Below, in pieces: positions 46,257-58,262 of a stretch of DNA of 64,000 bases (position 1 is its first letter; each line of letters begins with the position of its first letter). The position numbers and the translations under genes were made by a program. Below the pieces are notes generated by a model that saw nothing but the letters and a program-made list of their open reading frames with translations, had not been told where the DNA came from and did not search any database. This stretch comes from Paenibacillus faecis (lineage in GTDB: Bacteria; Bacillota; Bacilli; Paenibacillales; Paenibacillaceae): NCBI RefSeq assembly GCF_008084145.1, contig NZ_VSDO01000001.1, positions 1,378,840 through 1,442,839 on the forward strand. Reading direction: 5' to 3'.

Positions 46257-47702
46257 TTAGAATTGGAGACGGCCCTGAAGAGCGGAAGAGAGCGATTCCA
46301 GGATAGGGCGTTTTTGTTTGAGGAGGGTAGAGATGACTCCGCGAATACGGGCGAAATGTTCTGCGCCGGCTTCGGTGCGGAATGCTCCAGAAATTTTAGT
46401 CTTCACCTTGACCATACGAATATCTCGCTCGGCTTGGTTATTGTCAAACGGTACGTGGGCATCTCGAAGAAAGGCGAGGATAGCAGATTTCCATTTCTCA
46501 AACCGCTCTGCTAAATTCCCGGCCTTCCCTTTGGCTTGTCTGCCGCGTACGCCCTTTTTCCTGGCAACGACGTTCTTACTCCATTCTTCTCTGCCACGAA
46601 AAAGAATATCGTCATAGTGCTGCTCGATTTCCTGGACCACCAGTTCCGGGAGAGGCTTGCCGGATTCGCGGGAGGCGCACACCAGGCTCCAACTTTCTTG
46701 CAGCAATGTTTTCATTTCCCCCGACCATTGGTGATTATCGTTCTCGGTAATGCCCTGACATTCCCGAAGGAGATGCGCATTGCACAGAACGTGGCGGAAC
46801 GAAAACGACTTTGGGTTGAAGTACGGACCATAGCAATCATGGACAACCGTACCTTTATAGGCGGGCAGGATCCCTCCGGCCGCCATTCCTTGGGTACCGC
46901 GGCTACTGTGAACGGTGAGGTGTGTGAAGCTGCCATTGCTCGCCGTATGCATCCAGACCCCGCTTCCGTTAACGCGAAACCCGGTCTCATCCGCATGGAT
47001 GAGCGGGCTCCGGAGCAGGTGCTGTTGGATTTGTTGCTCAGGCGTAGTTAAGGAGGTATACATCTGCTGGAGGTGCGAGAGCAGCGTAGCCTCACTCGGA
47101 CCGTGATCTGTCAAATCTTCGAAAAGCTGAGCAATGCGTTCCAAAGGCAGCAATTGGTAGACACTCAAATAGCTGGTCCAAGCCCGTAGCGTATCACCGT
47201 ACTGCACAGGGGCCTTTACTCGCTCAGGAAAAGCAGCTGTACTTGTGGCCCTGCAGGACGGACAGCACTTCGTTTCGGCCCGATGTTCGGTGACGCTCCA
47301 TTTGACAGGAGGTAGATCGAAGACTTGCCGGGCTTCATACCTTTGAGCAGGGATGTCTGCCAGAGACGTATGGCAGAAAGTGCAGATCGCATGCGGATGA
47401 ATCTGGATTTCATCCGGTTGTGCCACCATACGCAGCGTCTGCCCGGGATGACCTTTGGGTGCCCCTTTTTTTCCACCGGATTGCCGGAGATTGTTGGTTT
47501 TACGGAACCCATCGCTAGAAGGCGGCTTACTGCTGTTGTTGCTATTTTGACCGAGTTGACGTTCAAGTTCCTGAACGCGTTGCTCCAACTCTACAATACG
47601 TTTGGCCTGCTGATCGATCACCTGCAGCAAGGCGTTAAAGGCAGTGATAATTTCGGGGTCGCCCTTGCATATGGCATGGACTTGTTCAGGGGATAGATGC
47701 AT
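46257..47702 (-). CDS. IS66-family transposase
   Basis: A 481-residue DDE transposase. The N-terminus has a leucine zipper-like coiled coil (about 25-55) and NSNNSSKPPSSDG, the IS66 N-terminal signature; a four-Cys zinc-finger-like part (CTFCHTS, then CCPSCRA) follows. The catalytic acids are in IHADETGF, VVHDCYGPYF and NNQAERDIRM. The C-terminal domain is complete. The start is ATG 47702, eight bases after GAGAGGAG. No frameshift or early stop is seen, so it should be active. Confidence 0.95.
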   Translation of the reverse strand: MHLSPEQVHAICKGDPEIITAFNALLQVIDQQAKRIVELEQRVQELERQLGQNSNNSSKPPSSDGFRKTNNLRQSGGKKGAPKGHPGQTLRMVAQPDEIQIHPHAICTFCHTSLADIPAQRYEARQVFDLPPVKWSVTEHRAETKCCPSCRATSTAAFPERVKAPVQYGDTLRAWTSYLSVYQLLPLERIAQLFEDLTDHGPSEATLLSHLQQMYTSLTTPEQQIQQHLLRSPLIHADETGFRVNGSGVWMHTASNGSFTHLTVHSSRGTQGMAAGGILPAYKGTVVHDCYGPYFNPKSFSFRHVLCNAHLLRECQGITENDNHQWSGEMKTLLQESWSLVCASRESGKPLPELVVQEIEQHYDDILFRGREEWSKNVVARKKGVRGRQAKGKAGNLAERFEKWKSAILAFLRDAHVPFDNNQAERDIRMVKVKTKISGAFRTEAGAEHFARIRGVISTLLKQKRPILESLSSALQGRLQF

Positions 47703-47775
47703 GGGTGACGCTCCTCTCATGAATTGGATTAACTTACCTTTTTGACAAAAGAGTTATAAACCCTTTTTTATAGAA

Positions 47776-50151: not shown

Positions 50152-50199
50152 TAGGAATAAATTAGAAAATCGCTGATGGCTGATAAAAGGAGGATAAAC

Positions 50200-51138
50200 T
50201 TGAATTGGTTGCATGCCTATGAAGAGGAATTAAAGCTGGCATTTGACGATGCCGAGAAGAGGCTCACCGTTCTGCCCGCATCATTACGGGAACCGGCTGT
50301 GGAATTTCTTCACAAATTTCATGTTCTTCGAGAAAAGTCCTCTAAAAATTATATCTGCTACCTTCTGCCCTTCTGGTTAAAGGAGCCGGCCGATATCGAT
50401 TTGGCGGACTGTCGCCGGATAGCGGCGGCCAATATTCTCGGCATGTTGTATTACCAGCTTGTCGATGCGGCCATGGATGAACCCGATTCCGCCAAAACCG
50501 GTCGGTTGCCGATGGCCCAGTTGATTCACCTGGAGTTTATCCAGATGTACCAACGCTATTTTCCGGGAAATTCTCCGTTCTGGGCTTATCATCAAAAATA
50601 CGTTGCCGAATGGGCGGAAGCCGTATCCAAGGAGGCCGTGTCCGATTATTTTTATGATGACCCGGTAAAAATGGCGCACAAAGCTGCGCCCGTCAAGCTT
50701 TCCGTTGCGGGTGCGATGCTGCTGGCCAAACGGGGCGAACGGATCCCGCAAATCGAACAAGCCGTGGACACCGTTTTGATAACCCTGCAATTGCTGGACG
50801 ACTGGGACGATTGGGAGAAAGACCTCAAGGAGAACAGTTACAACGCCTTGGTATCGGTCATCCAGACCGAGCTGGACATTCCCAAAGAACGACGCCCTAC
50901 AGCCGATGAAGTGCGGAGGGGCATTACGGTTTTCGGAGCGTTATCCCGGCTAGCGGAGCTTGGAAACCGGAATCACGATTCCTTGCTGAACATTCAGGAA
51001 TTTGTGCCCGATCTGGTTGCTTTTCATGCCACTCTCCGAACCAATCTTAATGACGGAGCCGCAGAGATGGAGCGGGAGCGAAACGCATTGCTCCAAGCGG
51101 GAGGATTGGGATACTGGCTGACCAAACATATGAGTTGA
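50200..51138 (+). CDS. ComQ-like class I isoprenoid-synthase-fold protein
   Basis: A 312-residue, all-helical protein of the trans-isoprenyl diphosphate synthase/terpene cyclase superfamily. The first Asp-rich motif is degenerate, LVDAAMDEPDS (Asp89, Asp93, Glu94). The second is LQLLDDWDDWEKD (Asp200, 201, 203, 204), which would bind magnesium and a prenyl diphosphate. The short N-terminus and spacing are closer to ComQ and small terpene-like enzymes than to housekeeping FPP synthase. The start is TTG 50200, six bases behind AAAGGAGG; the ATG at 50176 has no site and the frame runs through that motif. The peptide gene follows 74 bp on. Confidence 0.75.
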   Translation: MNWLHAYEEELKLAFDDAEKRLTVLPASLREPAVEFLHKFHVLREKSSKNYICYLLPFWLKEPADIDLADCRRIAAANILGMLYYQLVDAAMDEPDSAKTGRLPMAQLIHLEFIQMYQRYFPGNSPFWAYHQKYVAEWAEAVSKEAVSDYFYDDPVKMAHKAAPVKLSVAGAMLLAKRGERIPQIEQAVDTVLITLQLLDDWDDWEKDLKENSYNALVSVIQTELDIPKERRPTADEVRRGITVFGALSRLAELGNRNHDSLLNIQEFVPDLVAFHATLRTNLNDGAAEMERERNALLQAGGLGYWLTKHMS

Positions 51139-51164
51139 AAGTAGATTTCATAAAAGATTCATGA

Positions 51165-51170
51165 TATACT
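51165..51170 (+). promoter_or_regulatory. Possible -10 box of the NHLP peptide gene
   Basis: TATACT lies 43 bp before the peptide start, in the 74-bp gap after the isoprenoid-fold gene; the -35 region is unclear. It would let the peptide be made at a higher level than the enzyme. Confidence 0.3.
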
Positions 51171-51212
51171 GACTAGGAAAATATAACCATTTTCATAGGA
51201 AAGGGTGATCTT

Positions 51213-51455
51213 ATGACATCAGGAGCTCTCCTTCAAAACAAGGTTATTGAAAAAGCATGGCAAGATCCGAGTTTTAAAGAAAAACTTCTCACCGATCCCA
51301 AAGCCGCAATCCAGGAGGCACTCGGTGTAATTCTCCCGGATCACATCAAAGTAAAAACTATAGAAGAGAATTCCGATGAATTTTATCTTGTACTGCCTCC
51401 AAATCCTTCTAATGTAATTAAGTCCGAAGTCAAGCCTAATGCAGTCTGGAGTTAA
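51213..51455 (+). CDS. NHLP-leader RiPP precursor peptide
   Basis: An 80-residue peptide. Residues about 10-62 are a nitrile-hydratase-alpha-like leader (AWQDPSFKEKLLTDPKAAIQ, then LPDHIKVKTIEEN and FYLVLPPNP), used in many post-translationally modified peptide families. The C-terminal part, about 64-80, ends in KSEVKPNAVWS with the only other Trp at position 79, next to last. That matches the pattern of ComX, whose near-terminal Trp is prenylated. AGGAAAGGGTG precedes the ATG. No Gly-Gly cleavage site and no maturation enzyme other than the isoprenoid-fold protein are seen. Confidence 0.85.
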   Translation: MTSGALLQNKVIEKAWQDPSFKEKLLTDPKAAIQEALGVILPDHIKVKTIEENSDEFYLVLPPNPSNVIKSEVKPNAVWS

Positions 51456-51510
51456 TTCTTGCCTATTGTTTAGTACTGAGTAGGGATACGAGTGAACCTT
51501 GGTCCAGTTC

Positions 51511-53406
51511 TCAAGCATGCTTCAATGCGGGGAATCGGATCACCGCCTCGGTCCCTACTCCTTTTTTACTAGTAAAGTTGATTTTCCCGTTCATGATTTC
51601 GATGATACGGAAGGTTACCATAAGCCCCAATCCAGTCCCTTTGGTTTTGTTGGAGAAGTAAGGTTCGCCCAATCGGGACAGCACTTCTTCATCCATTCCC
51701 TCTCCGGTGTCCTTAATGTGGATACTGACCTCCCCATCCTTCTCATATGCCCAAATTTGAATCTCTCCTTCTCCGTGAAGAGATTCGATACTATTTTTAA
51801 TAATATTTATGAAGGCTTGCTTGAATTTCGAAGAATTGCCTTTAATGTATAGATCCTGCGGAATATGGACGGAAATTTTGCCTCCCTGGAGATTGGCCAT
51901 CGGTACCAAAATACCTTCGATATGAATAAACTCATTTAGCACATTTAACTCGGTTACCTTTCCGACTTCCGGCTTTGCGAATGTCAAAAAATCGGTGATG
52001 ATACTGGAGGCGCGGTCCAGTTCTTCCAGAGCCATGCTTAAATAAACCTTATCGGCAGAATTCTGCTTGGCTACGAGTAACTGCAGAAAACCTCGGGTTA
52101 CTTGCAATGGATTCCGCACTTCGTGTGCGACGGAAGCCGCCAGTTCACTGATGATCTCCATTTTCTCGGAACGTTGAAGTTCATTGTTAAACATTTCGAG
52201 CTGCTTCGAGTATTCGACCACCTGCTCATGATTCCTTGCAAATCTTTTACCAAGGATGATAATCAGAGAAATTACAAAGCAAACAACGCCCCACTTCCAA
52301 AGATAAAGATCATAGTAGGCAGATTTAAAGAAGAACCAGCTCAATTCAACAATACCCAGAAGTGCAAATATAGCAAATCCGACAGAAAAAATAATGGCCT
52401 CCTGATTCCCACGAATTGTATAAATCGTTGAAACGGTAATCAGAAGAATAAACTGGACGATCATAATAATACCTAGTACCGTTACTGTAGCTATTTTATA
52501 GTAATCGTAAAACTGGTTGCCGCTGAGTAAGTTCACGATCATGAAGAGTACGCAAAAAAGAGAATACCCTAGTTGAAATTTCTTGTACTTGCTGATAATT
52601 GACTTGTAGCCTTTACCAAAAATACTTTCAAAAAAAGTTGTAAACGACGGCAACAAAACAAGAAGTGACAGATCAAACAACACTACATAAATACCACCAT
52701 ATTTCCCATACAGAGAATAGAGAAATGATGAATAAGTAATAACAATGATGCCGCTGGCTAAAATAATTAAACATAAGGAGAACCAGCTGGACAGATTCTT
52801 GTTTTTTAAAAAGAGCGAACAGATCAGCATGACTACTGCTATAAATATTAAGGCACAACCGATTATGAAATCCGTCAGATTGTCCTTAATATACGTATTC
52901 TGCATCTCCGCATAATCGCCTAAAAGCACGCCGCTCTGCAATCCAATTCTTGAACCTGATTTGATACCAACATATATGGAGTTACCTTCTGCCGACTGGT
53001 CCAACGGCAGCAAAATCGTATTGGTTTCGTACTTGTATTTTCGTTCCGATTCAAAGATTACTCGATCTCCGGAAAGAATGACCACATTGTATCCGTAAAT
53101 TTTTTCAAAAAGGACGGTAGGCTTACCTTTATCGAATTCAGGAATTCCAATCTTGACCCACTGGGCCTTAGCCCAAGTTGGAACTTCTGGCTTGGGGCCA
53201 TCAGCTTCCACCCTCGTCCATCCCGGCAACCGCTCCAAATCTTCCACGCTCATATTCGGATCGAATCGATCCGTCCAGGTGACTTCCCACTCCTTGATCG
53301 CCCGGTCGCTTCCATGCTTGGAATCCGGAACTTCCAGTAAAAATGCGCAAAAAGCCACCACAACCAGTACAAAAATGATGGCTACCGCTTTAAAAAAGGC
53401 TTTCAT
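51511..53406 (-). CDS. Multi-TM sensor histidine kinase (DISM type)
   Basis: A 631-residue kinase. Residue order: an N-terminal helix (about 5-25), an extracellular beta-rich domain (about 28-180), seven membrane helices (about 185-395), HisKA with the phosphorylated His428 in VAHEVRNPLQ, and HATPase_c with N, G1 and G2 boxes (NIIKNSIE, DTGEGMD, GTGLGLM). This is the 7TMR-DISM layout and its kinase core is like the KinB/KinC sporulation kinases. There is no response regulator beside it. It is convergent with the peptide gene, ending 56 bp from it. The start ATG 53406 follows GGGGTG. Confidence 0.88.
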   Translation of the reverse strand: MKAFFKAVAIIFVLVVVAFCAFLLEVPDSKHGSDRAIKEWEVTWTDRFDPNMSVEDLERLPGWTRVEADGPKPEVPTWAKAQWVKIGIPEFDKGKPTVLFEKIYGYNVVILSGDRVIFESERKYKYETNTILLPLDQSAEGNSIYVGIKSGSRIGLQSGVLLGDYAEMQNTYIKDNLTDFIIGCALIFIAVVMLICSLFLKNKNLSSWFSLCLIILASGIIVITYSSFLYSLYGKYGGIYVVLFDLSLLVLLPSFTTFFESIFGKGYKSIISKYKKFQLGYSLFCVLFMIVNLLSGNQFYDYYKIATVTVLGIIMIVQFILLITVSTIYTIRGNQEAIIFSVGFAIFALLGIVELSWFFFKSAYYDLYLWKWGVVCFVISLIIILGKRFARNHEQVVEYSKQLEMFNNELQRSEKMEIISELAASVAHEVRNPLQVTRGFLQLLVAKQNSADKVYLSMALEELDRASSIITDFLTFAKPEVGKVTELNVLNEFIHIEGILVPMANLQGGKISVHIPQDLYIKGNSSKFKQAFINIIKNSIESLHGEGEIQIWAYEKDGEVSIHIKDTGEGMDEEVLSRLGEPYFSNKTKGTGLGLMVTFRIIEIMNGKINFTSKKGVGTEAVIRFPALKHA

Positions 53407-53623
53407 TCCAGCACCCCTGCCAATGAAATAAAGAGCTACTCCAAATATATCAATTCGCTGCGGCAAAACCGTTAACCTTCAATTATATGGAAAATAAAGA
53501 ACTTTTTTAATGTGACCTGCATCAGAAATATTGTACCGTTAATGATGCGTTTAATCTATGAATACTTTTGTCGATATGCAATTAACTTCCAATTTACTAG
53601 TTTTCCAGGGAAGCCGTTCCAGC

Positions 53624-53715: not shown

Positions 53716-56700
53716 TTAGGCCATGTCGATGTCGATCCGGATCGCCCCTCCGCCGCGGATGTCCTCCGCAAGACCGCCGGCAATCACGGAACCCTCCAGG
53801 TTCACCGTCGATCCGTCGGCTTTATGCACGGCTATGCCGCGAATCGTTGCCGCGTCGCTGCCGTAGGTGTCCTTCTTCCTCGGGTTGCGATAGGTGACCT
53901 GCGTCTTGCCCAAGAAGGTGAAGCTCACCTCGCCGCGTTCGTCAAACAGCCAGCCCGGCAAAGCGGGGTTGAAGCAGAGCTGCAGTTCGCCGCCGGAAAC
54001 GCGGAACACCCGCTTGCCCGCCATCATCGTGATCCACATGCTGATAAACTCCGCGGTGGAGCCGCTTAATCGGGCGACGAAGCCCCGGCCGTGCACCTGG
54101 GGATCGGGATTGACGCTGGAGGCGATGAACGAGGAATTCTCCAGCGTACTGCGCCCGTAAACCTCCGGATCGAGGAACGGGATGAGCGAGGTCTGGATTT
54201 CCTCGAAGAACTGTTCCTTCAGCCCCGCCTTCAGCAAGGCCAACAAATATTTGTAGCTCATGTGCAGGAAGATCGATTCCCGTTCCAGCCATCCCGGCGT
54301 AAACGCGCGAATCCGGCCGATTTCATGTGATTCCCCGCCCAGGCTGACCGAGGTTTTGTACATGCGCAGCTTGTCGTCAAACAGGTCGCTGGCGCGAATC
54401 AATTCGTAAGCGCGCTCCGCTTCCGCCGGGTCCTCCAGCGTCTTCATCCAGCGGGCCGGACCCTCCAGGAAATGAGGCAGCGGGCGGACGGCAAATTTCT
54501 TCACCGCCGCTTTAGGCAGCCCGTAGCCGCTAATCACGGGTTTCCCCTGGCCGTCCAGCACAGGTTCGTACGCTACGGCTTCAAAGGCGAAGTAGGTCGG
54601 CGCGAGCCCGTTCCCCAGCGACACGGCTTCCGCGATCCCGGCGTCGATTTTGTCCAGCATCTGACGGAAAGCCGGAAGCAGATCCGAAAGCCGAAGCGTG
54701 CGCTCCTCCCCGGTGATGCCGTAACGGATGCTCTCCCGGTAACGCTCGCGGGCCGAGGTTACCTGGTCCCAATAGGAGAAGGAATCCAGTTCGCCGCTTA
54801 GATGACGAGAGAGCAGGGCGGTCACGGTCCGCAACAGGTCCGCGATCTCCTCGGGGACAGCGATCTCCCGCGAGGCGGCTTCTTCGGCGGATTCCGACAC
54901 GAACTTCAGCATCCGCTTCAGCTCGAAGGTTTCGCTCATTCCGGAACCGAAGAGGCCCGGCAGCCCGTTCATGGCATCGTTCCAGCCCGGCTTGTTCCCC
55001 TCCATCTCGATCCCCATGCCGAAAGGATCGAGGGTCGCAAATTTGACCAGGGAAAGGGACAGCAGCTTCACGAACAAGTTGGTACGGTAGATCTCTCCGC
55101 CGCCGTTGTTCGTTTTCAGCCAGTTCGTACTTTTTGCCGTCAAACCCTGCCGCTGCATTTTTTCCTCATCCAGCACCATGGCCCCGTACTGCCGAACTTG
55201 CCCCCCGCTAATTACGTACTTCTCGCTCCGCGGCAAAACTCGGGCCGGGCTGTCAAAGTACGTATAGTCCTGCTCCTCGTACAGCAAAGCGGCCTTCCGA
55301 TCCGGGAATATATCGAGATAACTGTCGATCAGATCCATATTGTAAGTCCAGTGATCGGACCAGTAACCTTCCCCGAAGGTCGCTTCGATTTCCTGTTCGG
55401 CCAGGGACAAAATGCCGGTCAAAAACGCCTCTTCCTCCACTTGTAGAGATACCTGGTGCTGCGCCACATAGGAAATCAGCTTGCCCGGCGTAAATTTCCG
55501 GAGACAGAGCTCCCGCAGCTCCTTCCGGGAATTGCCGGCGGCTTTGGCCAGCCATTGTTCCAGCTCCGAAGAACGGCTTTCCGGCACGCGGAAGCTCGTT
55601 CCCTCTACGCCGAGCGGATTGTAGCCGTCAGCCTGCATCAGGCTGAAGAACGTTTTGATGTTGAAGGTGCCTACGCGTGGGTTGAAGTAAATGTCGCTGC
55701 GACGGTTTTGATTGGCGTCCCGGAAGTTGCCGTTGCCTTGGGAATAATACTCGGGCGCGATCGAGAAAAAGTTATAGTCCCGTTCCAAATCCCCATGTTT
55801 GCGGGAATACAGGTGTATCACGAAGCCCTCTCTGCCATTCTCGAAAATAAACGGGTAACCGCCGCGCAGAAAATTGTCCAGATAGCTCTGCTTGGCGTAC
55901 GCGTCAAACAGCGGCATCGCTGTTTTCGTGGTCACGTCGGCCGTCAAGGCTTCCGTCAATTCCCGGGCTTCCTTCCGCTTCCGCTCAATATAGGCCGGTA
56001 CCGCGATCGAAGGGGCTTTCTCATTCAGCCGTTCCACACTGTCGAAGTGACCGATCAGCGTAAAAATACGCTTGGACTCCCCCGGCGCCAATTCCACGGC
56101 TGCCCCGGAAAATCCGCACGGCACCTTGTTGGTGCAGTACTGCGTCTGTTCCGCCAGCTCGGACAGCGGCGTCCCGGCAAAGCGCTCGGGATAAGCCAAT
56201 GACGTATTGCTGCCGAAAATCAGCTCAAAATCGGCGAACGGCCGGATCAGGCTGCCCTGTTCATCGAAGGACAGGTAGAAGTGGCCGCTGCGGATTTCGC
56301 TCACCTCCGCTTCGTCGTGCGTACTGGAGCGGTTCCGGTAGTAGGGAATTCCGTTCTCCAGATTTTCGACCTCCATCCAGCTCCGCAGCAGATTGCCGAT
56401 TTCTTTGTATCCCGCATTCTCCACCCCGTAAGGCAGAATTTCCGGCAACCCGTCGAGTACCTCGAAGCGAAGCGTCCGATCCGAATCGTTCGTGAAGTCC
56501 ACTTGGCGGACCAATGCCGCATAATCGTCGTTCGGGATATGAAAATAAGTGACTTTCGTGCTTAATCCCTTGCCTTCATGCTTTTCTTCAATGCCGACTT
56601 CATTAGCCAGAATCCGCATGCTGCGGTGAGCCTGGGGATCCGGATGCATACTTTGGAACGGCTCGTATATCTCCGAGCTTCCGCTCTCCTTGATAAAGGT

Positions 56701-56937
56701 TCTGAACCCTTTCATCGAAACGGATTGATAAGTAACGCTGGCCGGGGAAAATTCCATGATCGGGCTGTTCTTGTCCCGAATCCCAAAACTGCAGACCGCC
56801 TGCCCCCGATTGACGTAAAACGTCCACATCGGAATCCCTTTAAGCCCGGCCAGACCAGGCAGGAAGCTGGAAAACGGCTTAGCCTTATCGAACTGTTGAA
56901 TGACAAAAGCATCCTGCTCAAACCTGTAATTTGACAT
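53716..56937 (-). CDS. Large inverting glycoside phosphorylase (GH94/GH161-like)
   Basis: A 1073-residue cytoplasmic enzyme of the cellobiose-phosphorylase-like superfamily. N-terminal beta-sandwich (FEVLDGLPEILPYGVENAGY at about 180), a helical linker, and an (alpha/alpha)6 barrel with GYWSDHWTYNMDLIDSYLD and GWNDAMNGLPGLFGSG. Asp654 in the latter is at the place of the general acid of GH94. At this length the closest class could be GH161, beta-1,3-oligoglucan phosphorylases, rather than classical GH94 (about 800-900). It would use phosphate to make glucose-1-phosphate. ATG 56937 follows GGAGGAGG. A LacI palindrome lies 84-97 bp upstream. Confidence 0.85.
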   Translation of the reverse strand: MSNYRFEQDAFVIQQFDKAKPFSSFLPGLAGLKGIPMWTFYVNRGQAVCSFGIRDKNSPIMEFSPASVTYQSVSMKGFRTFIKESGSSEIYEPFQSMHPDPQAHRSMRILANEVGIEEKHEGKGLSTKVTYFHIPNDDYAALVRQVDFTNDSDRTLRFEVLDGLPEILPYGVENAGYKEIGNLLRSWMEVENLENGIPYYRNRSSTHDEAEVSEIRSGHFYLSFDEQGSLIRPFADFELIFGSNTSLAYPERFAGTPLSELAEQTQYCTNKVPCGFSGAAVELAPGESKRIFTLIGHFDSVERLNEKAPSIAVPAYIERKRKEARELTEALTADVTTKTAMPLFDAYAKQSYLDNFLRGGYPFIFENGREGFVIHLYSRKHGDLERDYNFFSIAPEYYSQGNGNFRDANQNRRSDIYFNPRVGTFNIKTFFSLMQADGYNPLGVEGTSFRVPESRSSELEQWLAKAAGNSRKELRELCLRKFTPGKLISYVAQHQVSLQVEEEAFLTGILSLAEQEIEATFGEGYWSDHWTYNMDLIDSYLDIFPDRKAALLYEEQDYTYFDSPARVLPRSEKYVISGGQVRQYGAMVLDEEKMQRQGLTAKSTNWLKTNNGGGEIYRTNLFVKLLSLSLVKFATLDPFGMGIEMEGNKPGWNDAMNGLPGLFGSGMSETFELKRMLKFVSESAEEAASREIAVPEEIADLLRTVTALLSRHLSGELDSFSYWDQVTSARERYRESIRYGITGEERTLRLSDLLPAFRQMLDKIDAGIAEAVSLGNGLAPTYFAFEAVAYEPVLDGQGKPVISGYGLPKAAVKKFAVRPLPHFLEGPARWMKTLEDPAEAERAYELIRASDLFDDKLRMYKTSVSLGGESHEIGRIRAFTPGWLERESIFLHMSYKYLLALLKAGLKEQFFEEIQTSLIPFLDPEVYGRSTLENSSFIASSVNPDPQVHGRGFVARLSGSTAEFISMWITMMAGKRVFRVSGGELQLCFNPALPGWLFDERGEVSFTFLGKTQVTYRNPRKKDTYGSDAATIRGIAVHKADGSTVNLEGSVIAGGLAEDIRGGGAIRIDIDMA

Positions 56938-57020
56938 TCGTATTCCTCCTCCATCTTTGGTTATAAAACTGCTCTCCAACCTTATTCAAATCCTCTTGAA
57001 AAATAGCTTGGCGAAAGGGT

Positions 57021-57065: not shown

Positions 57066-58070
57066 TTAAAGCGAACGACAAGACTCCCTGATGACAATTT
57101 CTACCGGCAACATAGCGGTTTGCACTCCGCTCCCGCCTTCTATCGTATAGATTAACATGTCGGCTGCTTTGCTGCCAAGTGCATAAGTATCCTGCCGGAC
57201 GGTGGTTAAGGCCGGTGTCAAAAATTTGACCATTTCAATGTCGTCGAACCCGATCAACGAGATGTCGTCCGGTACGCGGAGCCCCCGTTTTTTCAGGGTC
57301 ATCATGGCTCCGACCGCAAGGTTGTCCCCGGCGGCAAACACCGCCGTAGGGAGCTCATCCGTCAGAAGCAGCTCCTCCATCGCAGCCTGGCCGCTCTCCA
57401 TAGTATAATCATAGCTGCCTTGAATCACATACTGGGGTTCGACAGGCAGATTTAAGTTTTCCATCGCGCGAAGGTAACCCTGAAGCCGCTTCTCCCCCGC
57501 GAAACTATGCCCGCCGCCGATATGGCCGATCCGCCGGTGGCCGAGCCGATGCAGGTACTCCACTGCCTGCATGGCGCCCGCGATATTGTCGGAACAGATC
57601 GTGCTCTTTTGCTCCGACTCCTGATCCAGAAGCACGCACGGAATGTCGGAATCCAGCAGCTCCTGAAAATACGGATCCCCATAATCGGGCAGAATGACGA
57701 CAACCCCGTCCACACCGCGAATTTTGCAGTGCTCCACATACCCGCTTTTTTTTCCGCCGATATCCTTGGTGACGAACATTAAATCATAGCCCTTCGAAGT
57801 GGATACCTTCTTAAATCCTTCGATGACCCCGGCAAAATAAGGATGCAAAATCCCCGCACCCGAAGGCTCGTTAAAAAGCACTCCGATCGTCCAAGAGCGT
57901 TTCATCGTCAGCGAGCGGGCATGGGCATTCGGGAGATACCCGAGCTGCTCGGCCGTCTCCAATATTTTGGCACGCGTCTTGGGGCTGACATCCGAATAAT
58001 CGTTAAACACTTTCGACACCGTGGTCGGGGAACAACCGGCGATTTTGGCAATATCGTATATGGTTACCAC
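57066..58070 (-). CDS. LacI-family transcriptional regulator
   Basis: A 334-residue repressor: helix-turn-helix at 1-55 (VTIYDIAKIAGCSPTTVSKV) with a hinge, then a periplasmic-binding-like sensor (about 60-334) with the usual SDNIAGAMQAVEYLHRLGH and TTVRQDTYALG. Ligand probably a sugar. Start GTG 58070 is twelve bases past AGGAG; an ATG at 58082 touches that site and is less likely. It lies upstream of the phosphorylase gene on the same strand, with the CGAAACCGGTTTCG site between them, so it should control it. Confidence 0.88.
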   Translation of the reverse strand: MVTIYDIAKIAGCSPTTVSKVFNDYSDVSPKTRAKILETAEQLGYLPNAHARSLTMKRSWTIGVLFNEPSGAGILHPYFAGVIEGFKKVSTSKGYDLMFVTKDIGGKKSGYVEHCKIRGVDGVVVILPDYGDPYFQELLDSDIPCVLLDQESEQKSTICSDNIAGAMQAVEYLHRLGHRRIGHIGGGHSFAGEKRLQGYLRAMENLNLPVEPQYVIQGSYDYTMESGQAAMEELLLTDELPTAVFAAGDNLAVGAMMTLKKRGLRVPDDISLIGFDDIEMVKFLTPALTTVRQDTYALGSKAADMLIYTIEGGSGVQTAMLPVEIVIRESCRSL

Positions 58071-58262
58071 TTGAACGTTCATCTCCTGCTTTAGCTCGGA
58101 AAACCGCTCCGAGGGTTCTTGAGAAATTGTAGCCGTCCTGCCGCGAAAAAGTCAACAGCCATCGCTGCCCCCCGTTTGCGCCCGTTTTCCCCTTGTTTCA
58201 TCAAGGCGCCAAGCGTTTAAGAATAGGCAAACAGACCACTAGCGATGAAGGAGGGAAATTCC

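Follow-up and report, generated by a model that had tools for sequence, protein, structure and literature searches.

A probable PalQ-PalX-PalP-type module in Paenibacillus faecis with a tailed precursor tryptophan, a candidate lipopeptide input to the Spo0F relay

In Paenibacillus alvei, the enzyme PalQ prenylates the C-terminal Trp of the peptide PalX in vitro, and the product was analyzed by NMR (Miyata, Ito, Fujinami 2023, PMC10853753). As far as the available text of that report goes, the cluster PalQ-PalX-PalP is conserved in Paenibacillus, and D89, D93, Q197, D200 and D204 are named as catalytic residues of PalQ. The PalX leader helps prenylation, and lysate cleaves the peptide before its last eight residues. 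P. alvei PalQ, the only enzyme assayed to date, does not work on a C-terminally extended peptide: activity is lost when Ala follows the Trp. Nor does it accept GGPP. The accessible part of a review (PMC13290415) describes low activity when the Trp is internal and has Gly on its flanks, and adds that some prenylated products of PalQ have antimicrobial potential. PalP is only named in the available text of PMC10853753; the present analysis assigns it a class and a likely output.

The ComQ-ComX-ComP-ComA system of Bacillus subtilis has a comparable layout. An isoprenoid-synthase-type enzyme is accompanied by a small peptide with a Trp near, not at, its C-terminus, and by an adjoining membrane kinase. 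This kinase, ComP, carries HisKA_3 (PF07730) and mostly 10 transmembrane (TM) segments (PMC4008528, available part). The same source describes 'hypothetical comX' loci in Paenibacillus curdlanolyticus YK9 and Bacillus coagulans 36D1. There, a peptide that lacks ComX homology except for its C-terminal Trp adjoins comQ- and comP-like genes. These loci have the canonical gene order including comA, which sets them apart from the locus studied here by description only. The available text of a P. polymyxa genome study reports that no comQXPA homologues were found (PMC4209062).

The window, a stretch of 64,000 nucleotides from Paenibacillus faecis, contains an enzyme gene, a peptide gene and a convergent kinase gene. 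Open reading frames and DNA confirm this trio, as proposed in the initial annotation. The features are listed below (positions are those of the window).

50200..51138, forward strand: predicted PalQ-type peptide prenyltransferase, 312 aa, TTG start
50464..50478, forward strand: first Asp motif, D89-A-A-M-D93, with A where the usual DDxxD has its second D
50788..50811, forward strand: Q197 to D204, a Gln presumed to recognise the Trp, then the presumed second Asp motif (role from the available text of PMC10853753)
51162..51170, forward strand: tgatatact, putative extended -10-like box before the peptide gene, conserved in the clade
51197..51205, forward strand: ribosome-binding site of the peptide gene, from sequence and clade conservation
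51213..51455, forward strand: PalX-type NHLP precursor peptide, 80 aa
51447..51452, forward strand: Trp79 (presumed acceptor, 51447-51449) and the one-residue tail Ser80
51511..53406, reverse strand: orphan histidine kinase of the PalP type (631 aa), in convergent orientation with the peptide gene; alternative start at 53466
52123..52125, reverse strand: presumed phosphorylated His428 in HEVRNPLQVTRGFLQLL, invariant in A3 and aligned with KinB
52207..52866, reverse strand: 7TM region of the kinase (residues 181-400), from hydropathy
52867..53334, reverse strand: N-terminal part of the kinase (about residues 25-180), presumably an extracytoplasmic domain, from hydropathy
53474..53493, reverse strand: conserved block TTTCCATATAATTGAAGGTT with a TATAAT box before the kinase gene, from 31 loci

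The window shares with PalQ-PalX-PalP its three parts: an enzyme with the catalytic residues at the same numbers, an NHLP-type precursor with an invariant near-terminal Trp beside it, and a histidine kinase in the cluster. The same search families also take in P. alvei-like loci (L261, L262). The combination had been thought to lack an experimental description; this does not hold, since the P. alvei report gives the cluster, the in vitro prenylation and the product NMR. Two differences stand out. The Trp of the window is penultimate and followed by a variable tail, and the first Asp motif of the enzyme has A as its second residue, where P. alvei has D.

Kinship with ComQ-ComX-ComP, also suggested initially, is not supported, and membership in ComQXPA is rejected. 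The peptide belongs to the NHLP family, and Pfam searched up to E 1 gives it no match to the ComX family (PF05952). The kinase has HisKA (PF00512) instead of HisKA_3 and 1+7 TM-like segments, and lies on the opposite strand, whereas the ComQXPA genes share one. No ComA-type regulator adjoins it.

Enzyme homologues are found in 122 of 195 genomes (the window's own and relatives), and each of these 122 also has peptide and kinase sensor. That enzyme, peptide and kinase occur together had been put forward as support, and loci without the kinase as a point against; none of the latter were seen, the sensor lying about 15 kb away in 2 of 170 loci. In 166 of the 170 loci a kinase is convergent and within 2 kb of the peptide, thus the arrangement is more than chance. 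A strong kinase-sensor match without enzyme or peptide occurs in five genomes, which counts against a module.

The 170 loci are distinct enzyme sequences from the window, from 127 further stretches and from the best 80 among 156 named matches. The 127 stretches comprise all enzyme matches in the 121 other enzyme-positive genomes and overlap with the named matches before merging. L127 and L128, pieces of one split enzyme, were both dropped. Peptide starts were picked by a simple rule of start codon and ribosome site. For loci with several peptides, Trp invariance over the 170 loci refers to the best-scoring peptide, while a count over 182 peptides takes all of them. A later genus search with 13 peptide matches lies outside the 170-locus counts.

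The TTG start of the enzyme at 50200 is preceded by aaaaggagg (50185-50193); an alternative in-frame ATG at 50176 would yield 320 aa. Pfam and NCBIfam contain no family that matches the enzyme above cut-off. Searched alone against PDB sequences, the enzyme had three matches, all at chance level. Resemblance to FPP synthase profiles is weak (E 0.02-0.06), and membership in the all-helical isoprenoid-synthase superfamily is hinted at by sequence. D89, D93, Q197, D200 and D204 are invariant in 170/170 distinct enzymes, the window's included, and a P. alvei-like enzyme aligns under the same residue numbers.

The peptide matches TIGR03793, the NHLP family, with 68.6 bits (cut-off 50.9). The translation ends in PNAVWS and places the next-to-last Trp at residue 79 of 80. 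The aligned Trp is invariant in 170/170 loci, and none of the 182 peptides lacks it. The leader is conserved and the core variable, which speaks for a module. By comparison across loci, Trp79 is the likely prenyl acceptor, as had been suggested. Peptides without Trp beside a conserved enzyme were named as evidence against that suggestion. Within the 170 loci there are none; in the genus search, one of the 13 matches (L247/L261, a single genome with the enzyme present) has a frame that departs just before the Trp, which counts against the module.

A Trp at the very end, a property of the P. alvei pair, is lacking in the window peptide, which ends in VWS. We do not take it as family-defining, because 66 of the 170 homologous loci, the window among them, have 1-6 variable residues after the Trp. 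The tail state has switched at least 11 times across the 170 loci. Sixteen kinds of first tail residue occur over 77 tailed peptides, and the tail column is the most variable peptide column in the window's clade (31 loci). Such a non-terminal Trp with a variable tail is new here, although the figures of PMC10853753, beyond its available text, may already show tailed peptides. D90, which follows D89 in the first Asp motif, is kept in 103 of 104 loci with a terminal Trp and in 30 of 66 tailed loci. A test of the 15 enzyme columns that track the tail state most strongly gave no significant one over 7 supported independent pairs. D90 is only a lead.

The kinase carries HisKA and HATPase_c. Its closest solved structure by sequence is KinB (3d36) at 180.7 bits, with the next at 95.2, and core and H-box are closest to KinB-type sporulation kinases; the NCBIfam KinD model scores 164.5 against a cut-off of 775. 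One has to go about 22 kb from the kinase to reach the start of the nearest receiver domain. Among the best 20 of 52 matches in the genome, the five nearest kinase paralogues are orphans and the next 14 all adjoin receivers. The kinase thus groups with KinB-type orphans in a Spo0F-bearing genome, unlike ComP/ComA. The initial annotation's KinB-type core, its missing partner regulator and its sporulation-type orphan kinase all stand. From this resemblance we infer that Spo0F could be the target. The 7TMR-DISM sensor was labelled too firmly for the window sequence alone, which scores 17 bits against 7TMR-DISM_7TM (PF07695; cut-off 29). Nevertheless, family-averaged hydropathy gives 8 TM-like peaks (1 + 7), the first separated from the second by about 155 residues, and the model matches 19 of 39 relatives at E<=0.01 (best 3e-8). 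Linkage of such a 7TMR-DISM-like sensor to a peptide and to the enzyme of that peptide sets the kinase apart from KinB-type sporulation kinases.

The distance-matrix test was run twice. In the window's clade of 31 loci, the peptide core co-varies with the kinase 7TM region, and 14 of 1000 tree simulations score as high. Over all 160 loci the signal is weak, the 7TM region is not singled out, and the enzyme correlates better than the kinase sensor. The missing regional co-variation over 160 loci counts against a module.

On balance, the trio is probably a PalQ-PalX-PalP-type module that acts as a lipopeptide density input via the Spo0F relay. The enzyme would attach a C5-C15 prenyl group to indole C3 of Trp79, with the NHLP leader helping to hold the peptide. 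The C20 shift (+272 Da) initially considered is unlikely because P. alvei PalQ did not accept GGPP (PMC10853753, available text). Proteolysis would then free a short C-terminal peptide bearing the prenylated Trp, which, once exported, would be sensed outside the cell by the 7TM region of the kinase. Phosphate would pass from the kinase to Spo0F and on to Spo0A without a dedicated regulator. Thus the module would provide a cell-density input, with species-specific cores, to sporulation or another Spo0A-controlled decision. The trio contains no transporter or protease, which counts against this explanation, as does the tail itself, since PalQ loses activity when Ala follows the Trp.

Alternatively, a carboxypeptidase could strip the tail before a strictly C-terminal PalQ-type enzyme acts on the now terminal Trp. 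The chemistry would then be exactly that of P. alvei, whose PalQ requires a free terminal Trp (PMC10853753, available text), and the tail would be a guard. The tails are short and varied, so no single endoprotease site would be needed. However, no carboxypeptidase belongs to the module, the tail position is not relaxed to any trend, and Pro stands right after the Trp in 2 of 77 tails. Proline there makes a poor substrate for most carboxypeptidases. The low activity on an internal Trp between Gly residues (PMC13290415, accessible part) also speaks against trimming first, which we consider unlikely. A different product, a membrane-active or antimicrobial RiPP, would turn the kinase into a sensor of product or damage that triggers a stress or immunity response instead of a quorum signal. 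NHLP precursors are by name mostly RiPP precursors, and PalQ-made peptides can be antimicrobial according to the same review. Against this, the trio, judged by the window, has no recurring gene for transport, immunity or additional modification, and the kinase accompanies the enzyme in 122/122 genomes. Moreover, short arrays of peptides with differing cores adjoin one kinase; together with the co-variation in the clade, these suit a receptor-ligand pair. We judge a RiPP quite improbable. Least credible by far is a terpene or prenyl diphosphate synthase with an incidental peptide neighbour. The weak FPP synthase resemblance favors it, and we reject a synthase unrelated to the peptide because the peptide is present in every enzyme genome, its Trp is invariant, and a homologous enzyme is proven on a homologous peptide (PMC10853753, available text).

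Returning to the prenylated signal, we tentatively propose, with somewhat less conviction than doubt, a more specific version. The clade's PalQ-type enzymes would act on a non-terminal Trp as ComQ does, and both flanks of the prenylated Trp would encode the pherotype. An orphan kinase of the Kin type would read the mature peptide through its 7TM region, feeding a prenylated quorum signal straight into the Spo0F phosphorelay. This route would exist in much of Paenibacillales and would have been reached independently of ComX-ComP-ComA. If tailed peptides are prenylated intact, the strict demand of PalQ for a C-terminal Trp does not extend to its family, and nature already offers enzymes that lipidate a non-terminal Trp. 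Should the kinase indeed read the peptide, the sporulation relay of Paenibacillus species would receive cell-density information from a lipopeptide whose core differs between species.

Promoter and terminator scans of the DNA gave counts at or below the shuffled mean, and the generic promoter scan misses the box at 51162..51170. Nevertheless, ATGnTATAnT is kept before the peptide gene in at least 85% of the 31 clade loci.

An enzyme gene, a peptide gene and a kinase gene convergent to the latter lie side by side in the window, as the initial annotation had reported:

50200–51138, plus strand: PalQ-type enzyme of 312 aa, with a TTG start preceded by a good ribosome site
51213–51455, plus strand: PalX-type peptide of 80 aa with the C-terminus PNAVWS
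51511–53406, minus strand: PalP-type histidine kinase of 631 aa, convergent to the peptide gene

The peptide is an NHLP-family precursor (profile search, 68.6 bits against a cut-off of 50.9). The annotation read the trio as a ComQ-ComX-ComP-like module that would make a prenylated-peptide signal. In outline this interpretation is right, but the combination, which it took to be undescribed, has a published relative: Miyata, Ito and Fujinami (2023; PMC10853753) had already described it as PalQ-PalX-PalP of Paenibacillus alvei, where PalQ prenylates the C-terminal Trp of PalX. The main text of that paper, as far as it was accessible, contains no signalling tests. Apart from this paper and a 2026 review (PMC13290415), we found no further related report in the openly licensed literature, which is not proof of absence.

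The occurrences of the three parts are nested. In a set of 195 genomes (relatives plus the one that carries the window) the sensor part of the kinase (residues 1–400) is found in 138, peptide profile matches in 130 and the enzyme in 122, and every enzyme genome has both peptide and sensor. The best peptide match in each enzyme genome has an E-value of 1.3e-26 or better; the NHLP matches in the eight peptide genomes without enzyme are weak (best E 2e-16). The sensor occurs without the enzyme in 16 genomes, with strong matches in five (G053, G055, G063, G129 and G176). Around the sensor kinases of G063, G129, G053 and G055, 9–11 kb were fetched (L257, L258, L259 and L260), and these stretches contain neither enzyme nor peptide. 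Such kinases are possibly eavesdroppers or remnants. In a phylum-wide draw the enzyme was found in 6 of 398 genomes, all six from the window's family; the 195-genome search also found it in three other families of the order. Among the best 80 of 156 named matches, 76 bear Paenibacillus in their title; the match closest to the window comes from Fontibacillus phaseoli (61%).

Merging of loci left 170 distinct enzymes. A convergent kinase lies within 2 kb of the peptide at 166 of these loci; at L236 and L074 it is close by but rearranged, and roughly 15 kb separate the two at L098 and L122. Seven fetched loci (L036, L038, L041, L045, L050, L080 and L090) have two related kinases (matches above 300 bits) beside one peptide. 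The kinase of L259 is divided between two frames. Five loci hold arrays of two to five peptides with differing cores, from which one cell may send several signals. The arrays have five PalX-type peptides at L107, four at L096, three each at L104 and L110 and two at L095, each array beside a single enzyme and a single kinase.

The PalQ residues that PMC10853753 discusses (D89, D93, Q197, D200 and D204) are invariant in all 170 enzymes, and W59, W138, D201 and D208 in 126 of 126. These residue numbers also hold in the alignment with the P. alvei-like locus L261, whose peptide contains PTDNVRRF, the beginning of the published PalX core. Profiles of the enzyme reach farnesyl diphosphate synthases weakly (E 0.02–0.06).

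Conservation of the presumed acceptor Trp, which the initial annotation proposed as a check, holds across all 170 aligned loci, with one departure elsewhere. All 182 peptides of these loci have a Trp among their final eight residues. It is the last residue in 105 peptides and is followed by one to six residues in 77. Tailed loci number 66 of 170, and the state has changed at least 11 times on the enzyme tree. In the window's clade, with the aligned Trp as reference, 31 of 31 loci are tailed; their peptides share a conserved leader and never vary at Pro75 or Trp79, and variability is highest at the tail position. The departure comes from an additional search of the genus, in which 12 of 19 genomes were positive: in G587 (L247/L261) the enzyme is present, and the peptide frame leaves the published core directly ahead of the Trp, through either a sequencing error or a real change.

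According to the review, which reiterates an earlier finding, extending the C-terminus abolishes activity, and an internal Trp surrounded by Gly allowed low activity (PMC13290415). Under this C-terminal rule there are two readings of the tailed loci: their enzymes act on a Trp that is not terminal, or a trimming step removes the tail beforehand. Directly behind D89 stands a D in 103 of 104 loci with a terminal Trp versus 30 of 66 tailed loci (A in the window), a difference that is not significant over seven independent pairs. What remains new is that a tail follows the presumed acceptor Trp, a placement like that in ComX, and that this state has changed repeatedly.

The kinase has HisKA and HATPase_c domains. 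Family-averaged hydropathy gives eight TM-like peaks, one near the N-terminus and seven within residues 189–376. The 7TMR-DISM sensor named in the annotation scores 17 bits in the window, below the cut-off of 29, but its model matches 19 of 39 relatives at E≤0.01. Canonical ComP has HisKA_3, mostly 10 TM helices and a ComA neighbour (PMC4008528); the window's kinase differs in all three respects. Among solved structures its core is closest to KinB (3d36; 180.7 bits, next 95.2), with the H-box HEVRNPLQVTRGFLQLL aligned to HEIRNPLTAARGFIQLI of KinB. In the window's genome the five paralogues most similar to it in the kinase core (114–149 bits) are orphans, with every receiver start 14.7 kb or more away; the 14 that follow (77 bits or less) have a receiver within 1.5 kb. 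The genome also carries a Spo0F gene (168 bits to solved Spo0F). This probable placement among orphan sporulation-type kinases remains new.

Whether the kinase may be the receptor of the peptide was examined by co-variation. Within the 31-member clade the distances of peptide core and sensor correlate at 0.38 once kinase core, enzyme and leader are controlled for, a value that none of 2000 permutations reached; the kinase core gives −0.01 and the enzyme −0.05. By region, the 7TM part carries the correlation (0.45) and the N-terminal domain does not (−0.10). Peptide cores were also evolved randomly on a tree of the clade (plain identity distances, 1000 runs). Here the 7TM region gave 0.22, a value reached in 14 runs; for the N-domain it was −0.02 (797 runs) and for the enzyme 0.03 (520 runs). 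Across the full set of 160 loci the sensor correlates weakly at 0.11 (1 of 2000) and the enzyme more strongly at 0.21 (0 of 2000); neither half of the sensor stands out (0.06 and 0.07). Sequence co-variation thus lends modest support, confined to close relatives, to the kinase as the putative receptor. This clade-level co-variation remains new.

Upstream of the peptide gene an extended −10-like box and a ribosome site are conserved in the 31 clade loci. So is the block TTTCCATATAATTGAAGGTT with TATAAT upstream of the kinase gene (window 53474–53493, minus strand), whose conservation extends well past a −10 box. A generic promoter scan performed no better than on shuffled sequence, hence we treat these elements as leads. 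The neighbourhood contains:

46257–47720, minus strand: IS66-family transposase (PF03050, 162.5 bits), a few kb from the module
53716–56979, minus strand: 1087-aa protein matching no Pfam family at E≤0.001
57066–58082: LacI-type regulator, adjoining the gene of the 1087-aa protein
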